From NCBI GenBank assembly GCA_947174185.1, contig CAMWHY010000018.1, positions 1 through 33,263 on the forward strand: DNA of 33,263 bases, written 5' to 3'. The translations under genes were made by a program, and so were the position numbers. The notes under the pieces are model-generated. The model did no database searches, was not told the DNA's origin, and saw nothing but the letters and a program-made list of their open reading frames with translations. Positions 6,880-9,186 of the stretch are shown one piece after another. This DNA is from an uncultured Lachnospiraceae bacterium (lineage in GTDB: Bacteria; Bacillota; Clostridia; Lachnospirales; Lachnospiraceae). Positions within the stretch are counted from its first letter, which is position 1, and each line of letters starts with the position of its first letter.

Positions 6880-7773
6880 TTATATCTGCTTCCTGTAATA
6901 ATCCTTATACCCTTCCCCATAAATCTCAGACGCGCTGGCGATGATCAAAAAAGCATGGCTGTCAATATCCTTTATGATTGCCACTGCATTCGGCGCCTGC
7001 CGTTTGCGCATGATACAAAGCATAATCTTCTTATCTCTTCCGGTATACGCCCCCTGTCCATGCAGATACGTAACCCCTCGTTGCAGTTCCTGCATAAATG
7101 CGCCTGCGATTGTTTCCGCCTCATCAGAAATTACAAAAATCATTCTTGCCTCTTCGCTTCCATACAACACCAGATCCAGTACCCTTGAAGTCACAAATAC
7201 TGTCAATGCTGCAAATAGAACTGTATCCACAGACCCGAAAACAAACAGGGACAGGAAAACGATGATGCTGTCAATGATAAAAAAGAATGCCCCCGTCTTT
7301 AAAAACGGATAACGATTTCTTAAAAGCTTGATCACAATATCCGTACCACCAGTTGTCGCTCCCAGCCGCAGGATCATCCCGATAGCCACAGCATTGATCG
7401 CGCCTCCCGCCACAGCCGCAAGAAACGGTTCTCTTGTCCATGCCCCGCTGATTTCAAATAAATTGGTAAAAAAGGAAATCCATACAAGAGTATATATTGT
7501 GGATGCAGTAAATTTAAATCCAAATTTCCAGATACTCAACGCCATAATCGGAATATTAAACAAAAAGATCAGCGTACCCGTGTCAATGCCTACCAACCGG
7601 TTGACCAGGATCGCAATTCCCGTGACACCACCCGGCGCAAGATTATTCGGATCAAGGAAGCAGCTAACGCCAAAAGCATAAACAGCAGCAAAAAGGATTA
7701 GCAATAAACCTCTCCCGACCAAAGTCCTGATCAATGATTTTGTTTTTTGCTTCACTGAAAAATCTGCCTTCAT
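6880..7773 (-). CDS. YitT family membrane protein (DUF2179 C-terminal domain)
   Basis: FGVSCFLDPNNLAPGGVTGIAILVN, LGATTGGTDIVIKLL, C-terminal GxGxYTGRDKKIMLCIMRKRQ. Confidence 0.92.
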   Translation of the reverse strand: MKADFSVKQKTKSLIRTLVGRGLLLILFAAVYAFGVSCFLDPNNLAPGGVTGIAILVNRLVGIDTGTLIFLFNIPIMALSIWKFGFKFTASTIYTLVWISFFTNLFEISGAWTREPFLAAVAGGAINAVAIGMILRLGATTGGTDIVIKLLRNRYPFLKTGAFFFIIDSIIVFLSLFVFGSVDTVLFAALTVFVTSRVLDLVLYGSEEARMIFVISDEAETIAGAFMQELQRGVTYLHGQGAYTGRDKKIMLCIMRKRQAPNAVAIIKDIDSHAFLIIASASEIYGEGYKDYYRKQI

Positions 7774-7836
7774 AGGATTAGATTATCCTGCGAAGACAGA
7801 TTTCATTCATTCCACATTCAACTGCCTGCTAAAATA

Positions 7837-7958
7837 AATACTGTTTTTCTTTCTAAATATTGGTTCGAGACGAATATCTGCTCTTTAGATATTCGTTTGA
7901 ACAAATATCTGCTTTTTAGATATTTGTTCGGGGCCAATATCTTCTTTTTAGATATTGG
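7837..7958. repeat. Tandem stem-loop array at the 3' end of ilvA: three perfect hairpins plus a degenerate fourth
   Basis: ccaatatct/agatattgg (7934-7958), gaacaaatatct/agatatttgttc (7899-7929), acgaatatct/agatattcgt (7870-7896), degenerate aatact.../..aatatt (7837-7861); centres about 31-34 bp apart with a shared core ATATCTAAA(A/G)AG(A/C)AGATAT on the minus strand. Confidence 0.9.
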
Positions 7959-9186
7959 TTCTAACTAACTTCGGCTTATAATTCTCCTGCTCCAGCCTCG
8001 CCAGTATCCTCTGCTTATGCTCCACACCAAATGCCTCGATCGTGATCCGCAGTTCCACAGCAGCGTTACGATTGGTCGATACAAACTGGTTATGCTCCAG
8101 CTTAATGACATTGCCATTTTCTTCCGCAATAATGCCCGCCACTTTGCAAAGCTCGCCTGGCTTATCTGGCAATAGCACGGATACCGTAAAGATACGATCC
8201 CTAAAGATCAGACCCTGCTGAACCACCGAGGACATCGTTATGATATCCATATTGCCACCGCTTAAAATAGCCACAATCTTTTTATCTTTAACATCAAGAT
8301 GCTTGAGTGCAGCCGCCGTAAGAAGTCCGGAATTTTCCACGATCATCTTGTGGTTTTCCACCATATCCAAAAAAGAAACGATCAGCTCCTCATCCTCCAC
8401 GGTGATGATATCATCCAGATTATCCTGAATATACGAAAAAATCTTCGATCCGGGCGTCTTGACCGCCGTACCGTCAGCAATTGTATTGACCTGTGGCAGC
8501 GTCGTCACCTCACCGCGATTAATAGACGCTTTCATGCAGGCAGCCCCCGCAGGCTCCACGCCGATTACTTTGATCTTCGGATTTAACATCTTTGCCAGAG
8601 TGGATACACCCGCAGCCAGTCCACCACCGCCGATGGGAACTAAAATATAATCTACCAGCGGAAGCTCCTTGACGATCTCCATCGCTATCGTCCCCTGGCC
8701 TGTCGCAACCGCCAGATCATCAAAGGGATGAATAAATGTGTATCCATGTTCCTCCGCCAGTTCGTATGCACGTGCGCATGCCTCATCATATACGTCGCCA
8801 TACAGAACCACCTCTGCACCAAAATTCTTTGTACGGTTCACCTTGATCAAAGGTGTCGTTGTCGGCATAACGATCGTCGCCTTCATATGATTGCGCTGCG
8901 CCGCATAAGCAACACCCTGCGCATGATTTCCCGCAGAAGCAGTGATCACTCCTCTTTTTTTCTCTTCTTCGGACAACGTGCTGGTCTTATAATATGCGCC
9001 CCTGACCTTATAAGCTCCCGTAAACTGCAGGTTCTCCGGTTTGAAAAATATTTTATTGCCTGTTAGATTGCTGAAATACTCGCTATAGACCAGCTTCGTC
9101 TCCAGCGTTACCTGCTTTACGATCTCGGATGCCTCCTCAAATTTCTCCAGTGTCAGCATTCTTTCTTCCATTTCATTCGTATCCAT
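7948..9186 (-). CDS. ilvA: Threonine ammonia-lyase (PLP-dependent, C-terminal ACT domain)
   Basis: PENLQFTGAYKVRGAYYK (PLP Lys region), SAGNHAQGVAYAA, PIGGGGLAAGVS, C-terminal VLLPDKPGELCKVAGIIAEENGNV ACT domain; gene symbol could equally be tdcB. Confidence 0.93.
   Translation of the reverse strand: MDTNEMEERMLTLEKFEEASEIVKQVTLETKLVYSEYFSNLTGNKIFFKPENLQFTGAYKVRGAYYKTSTLSEEEKKRGVITASAGNHAQGVAYAAQRNHMKATIVMPTTTPLIKVNRTKNFGAEVVLYGDVYDEACARAYELAEEHGYTFIHPFDDLAVATGQGTIAMEIVKELPLVDYILVPIGGGGLAAGVSTLAKMLNPKIKVIGVEPAGAACMKASINRGEVTTLPQVNTIADGTAVKTPGSKIFSYIQDNLDDIITVEDEELIVSFLDMVENHKMIVENSGLLTAAALKHLDVKDKKIVAILSGGNMDIITMSSVVQQGLIFRDRIFTVSVLLPDKPGELCKVAGIIAEENGNVIKLEHNQFVSTNRNAAVELRITIEAFGVEHKQRILARLEQENYKPKLVRTNI

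Follow-up and report, generated by a model that had tools for sequence, protein, structure and literature searches.

The 3' end of ilvA in an uncultured Lachnospiraceae bacterium raises the question of how several hairpins came to be lined up where a coding sequence stops, and of whether the transcript makes any use of them. The window analyzed here, that is, the whole 33,263-nt stretch of DNA under study, carries ilvA followed by a gene for a YitT-family membrane protein, and an initial annotation had described, beside ilvA, three perfect hairpins in tandem together with a decayed fourth.

Architecture of the array

The three hairpins are present as described, with perfect Watson-Crick stems free of G-U pairs, and they extend on the minus strand from the stop codon of ilvA in the direction of yitT (Table 1). 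Their loops are A-rich and 7 nt long in each case, and their centers are spaced 31-32 nt apart. The supposed fourth hairpin is really a half unit, a left arm and loop from which the matching right arm is absent, and it is followed in the window by an extra stretch of ~34 nt. Along the sequence that leaves ilvA towards the YitT-family gene (...AGTTAGTTAGAACCAATATCTAAAAAGAAGATATTGGCCCCGAACAAATATCTAAAAAGCAGATATTTGTTCAAACGAATATCTAAAGAGCAGATATTCGTCTCGAACCAATATTTAGAAAG...), the left arm (L) and its reverse complement (R) alternate, in the order L R L R L R L. ilvA contributes the first L with its own last codons, ACC AAT ATC TAA (T-N-I-stop), and hairpin 1 spans the final ilvA codons and the stop, as the initial annotation had also pointed out; the R arms are reverse complements of the ilvA 3' end that adjoin their source sequence.

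Table 1. Features of the ilvA-yitT region, in coordinates of the window.
Feature	Coordinates	Strand	Description or basis
ilvA, threonine dehydratase with ACT domain	7948..9186	-	ORF; PF00291 E=4.5e-79, PF01842 E=4.6e-6
Hairpin 1	7934..7958	-	9-bp stem, loop AAAAAGA, -8.8 kcal/mol
Hairpin 2	7899..7929	-	12-bp stem, loop AAAAAGC, -11.7 kcal/mol
Hairpin 3	7870..7896	-	10-bp stem, loop AAAGAGC, -9.7 kcal/mol
Half unit, left arm and loop alone (CGAACCAATATTTAGAAAG)	~7849..7867	-	Sequence and coordinates
Long separate hairpin, then U tract, over the yitT-family ORF start	7758..7803	-	MFE structure; kept in G000, G018 and G022
YitT-family membrane protein, gene next downstream	6880..7773	-	PF02588 E=4.2e-55, PF10035 E=6.6e-20

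The array is not a chance product. None of 20,000 random sequences (first-order Markov, composition matched) contained at least two hairpins of at least 9 bp, and the real sequence has three; folding z-scores were -5.0 for positions 7774-7970 and -7.5 for positions 7740-7985. Within the 431 kb of its own genome sampled as background (20 stretches plus the window), the triple hairpin is unique to the ilvA locus. The assemblies are drafts, that of the window species comprising 200 contigs; an assembly duplicate is the less likely because the units differ from one another.

Hairpins at a gene end bring to mind a cluster of transcription terminators, serving either ilvA or antisense transcription, and the A-rich loops are indeed T-rich on the opposite strand. 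However, none of the three hairpins is followed by a U tract on either strand, the terminator scan returned nothing, and a separate one that does have a U tract occurs ~130 nt downstream of them; we regard a terminator cluster as very improbable. The separate hairpin, at -21.9 kcal/mol in the window and followed by UUUUU, is far stronger than those of the array, and it was skipped by the terminator scan because its loop region exceeds the size that the scan permits. It is common to the three nearest species (G000, G018 and G022), with changed pairs and energies of -19.7 to -21.9 kcal/mol, and encloses the yitT start codon and the AGGA upstream of it. Judging from these sequences, it would be the likelier terminator or start-site control element, and it may act as a translation-control hairpin or as a terminator that overlaps the start of the gene, whereas the array itself, as its sequence reads, is not the ilvA terminator. 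If co-transcribed with ilvA, the array hairpins should be stem-loops of its 3' UTR. At gathering score, Rfam identified one tRNA in the whole window and left the array unmatched.

Distribution among relatives

A search with the 122-nt array gave a single site in its own genome and, across 60 relatives, a match in G018 alone (80% over 65 nt). This closest species, with about 91-94% nucleotide identity over ilvA-yitT, carries 1.5 units, one hairpin and a half, and a half unit terminates the array there as well. G022, the next closest (88-90% nucleotide identity over ilvA-yitT), presents a collapsed remnant (AACGAATATTTAAAAAGCAGATATCTAAAAAGC), the hairpin part of which has a fold energy of 0 and forms no stable hairpin by itself; its ilvA consists of two matches in a draft assembly, which leaves the G022 sequence somewhat uncertain. 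Copy number at the ilvA 3' end, which the initial annotation had singled out for comparison, does change, from three hairpins in the window to 1.5 units in G018 and the remnant in G022, in a comparison that comprises one genome per species and leaves out G008, whose contig stops short of the 3' end of ilvA. The genome itself contains no second locus, and the suggestion in that annotation of a small palindromic repeat family is therefore not supported.

A one-unit covariance model, applied to 35 congeneric genomes, recovered three units at the window locus (with unit 2 also matching on the opposite strand), together with G018 and the remnant in G022. Besides these it gave just four weak single matches (E 0.03-0.1), about what chance would produce for 35 genomes, and no tandem units are found in their regions. 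The wider order sample yielded a chance match alone (295-genome search, with two candidates scored per genome and low sensitivity to diverged copies): a 31-nt match in G290, at order level and in two identical places, which hits an AT-rich part of the query outside the three hairpins and was discounted. Exact unit patterns had no match in viral contigs.

The array is absent from a congener more distant than G018 and G022, and the ilvA relative L008 (89% protein identity, the best match in G011 being equally 89%) is without it. Several other Lachnospiraceae show, by eye, a single hairpin (CCGCATAT..ATATGCGG) and then a T-rich stretch between both genes, which is terminator-like and unrelated to the array; some others have none. 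The T-N-I-stop ending, or a similar one, is common in the ilvA genes of relatives devoid of the array, indicating that the L arm is older and the R arms are new.

This distribution bears directly on a selected role in stabilizing the mRNA 3' end, which the initial annotation had listed among its possibilities. Serial stem-loops would block 3'-to-5' exonucleases after a cut or termination, raising ilvA mRNA relative to yitT, and both the perfectly paired stems and the strong sense-strand structure between the stop codon and the probable terminator hairpin are congruent with such a role. Nonetheless, G022 is devoid of a stable hairpin, other Lachnospiraceae carry no hairpin or an unrelated one, and ribosomes would open hairpin 1, which overlaps the stop codon. 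A conserved function is unlikely because the array is reduced or collapsed in both nearest relatives. In the window species itself a stabilizing role is conceivable, and we deem a stabilizer maintained by selection unlikely. A further elaboration, in which the end of the gene would act as a phase-variable dial, slippage changing the copy number of a 3'-UTR hairpin ladder and thereby tuning the stability of the ilvA mRNA and the ratio of ilvA to yitT, appears quite improbable.

Stem variation and proposed origin

Compensated variation of the outer stems, as put forward in the initial annotation, is confined to one position. In the aligned units (compared by eye and by ungapped pairing counts, MAFFT having misplaced the G000 repeats), the stem varies at X in AC-X-AATATCT alone, the pair being C:G in unit 1, A:T in unit 2 and G:C in unit 3, and the remaining outer differences are unpaired ends. 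X is complementary inside the hairpin in all four testable units (three in the window and one in G018). Between adjacent hairpins it is Watson-Crick in one of four cases, that of G018, with one additional G-T; for each right arm and the left arm after it, the window reads G/A, T/G and C/C. Given that X pairs within but mostly not between hairpins, the coupling appears to operate inside each hairpin, and we regard it as real but thin, comprising one position in three window units plus one unit in G018. Selection for RNA pairing predicts the same complementarity of the arms, and hence the covariation is not decisive for template switching.

The initial annotation had invoked selection or copying of structure, and it is copying that finds support here, since the units repeat the ilvA 3' end in inverted and in direct orientation and their number varies among relatives. 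We consider it probable that the array is a palindromic tandem repeat of recent, lineage-specific origin, which template switching and slippage built from the ilvA 3' end. In a snap-back template switch, the terminal bases GAACCAATATCT would have been copied as their reverse complement at a distance of a few bases downstream, so that a hairpin formed; the repeated arms might then have allowed replication slippage or unequal recombination, with expansion in the window species and contraction in its relatives, and template switching inside a hairpin would transfer a change on one arm to the other and keep the arms exactly complementary. A single template-switch event is reported to be able to make a perfect stem, and the mechanism to account for compensatory changes (PMC8794818); its action at quasipalindromes has been described in E. 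coli (PMC7202029). With two ATAT repeats on the flanks of the R-L palindrome, loss of the ~17 bp between them, a typical product of slippage, would leave the remnant seen in G022. Counting against the proposal, the half unit and the ~34-nt stretch that follows it find no detailed explanation in it. Beyond these steps we infer that the array is probably near neutral, in which case an mRNA-stabilizing effect, if any, would be incidental or lineage-specific.

The identity of the first arm as coding sequence also speaks against a DNA-binding or site-specific recombination array, composed of tyrosine-recombinase core sites or of a repeated operator. This analogy would draw on a likeness in dimensions alone (12-bp arms and a 7-bp spacer), and the array occupies a single locus, next to which neither an inserted element nor a recombinase gene was recognized; such an arrangement seems to us very unlikely.

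Known palindromic repeats and the wider genome

The array is a locally generated palindromic repeat of an already known type. With quasipalindrome or template-switch mutations (PMC8794818; PMC7202029) it shares the adjacent reverse-complement copy, the perfect stems and a palindrome-linked deletion, here in a relative, and the changes at its one variable stem position may be compensated in the manner of such mutations; it differs from them in being amplified to three hairpins and in beginning in the stop codon region, and the mutation is in this case a reconstructed one. Variable-number tandem repeats (minisatellites) have in common with it a ~32-bp unit and a copy number that differs between close species, but in the array each unit forms a palindrome, its arms covarying at one position. 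REP and BIME elements are palindromes with a GTAG or CGTC tag (PMC3733652), and the array resembles them in its small palindromes (25-31 bp) of alternating orientation at a gene end. In contrast to them, it occupies a single locus and has no demonstrated associated transposase, and no GTAG or CGTC tag is common to the unit ends by eye, CGTC occurring solely at the end of hairpin 3. Membership in a mobile REP, BIME or MITE-like family might be argued from the dispersed palindromic family and the stop-interrupted Y1 transposase region that the genome holds; yet the array is restricted to one locus and does not evidently resemble the dispersed family in sequence, and we find such membership highly improbable.

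Of the palindromic features in this genome, the dispersed family is the more unusual. It is a modular, multi-hairpin repeat of ~139 nt (e.g. L158, G000:C1:54184-54295, and L173, G000:C21:26357-26495), with the sequence parts TGTCAGAGC..., GATGAGAAATCC..., GCAATTTGAGGCTCTGACTCAAATTGC and GATTGAAAAAT...ATTTTTCAATC, and its modules are found singly or with one hairpin cleanly absent. There are 43 matches in the genome itself, 44, 44, 46, 17 and 8 in five relatives (G018, G008, G012, G022 and G002) and none in 29 other congeners, counts that take in fragments and opposite-strand matches of its palindromes. The tip of the last hairpin shows compensated variation (AAGATATCAATCTT / AAGCTATCAAGCTT), the 5' GTCAGAGC is complementary to the loop of the third hairpin, and Rfam gave no match in the copies checked. 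The Y1_Tnp match, of IS200/IS605 or RAYT type, consists of two pieces with a stop codon in each (L182 and L183, G000:C89:636-991). A tandem-hairpin scan also located two adjacent hairpins, of 9 and 8 bp, at positions 2509-2557 of the window.

The ilvA array offers a compact natural example in which compensated, perfect RNA hairpins could come from DNA copying and not from selection, and it advises caution, since compensation within an array is not proof of RNA function. Here, the array would have been seeded from coding sequence, and differing stages are visible in three close species.
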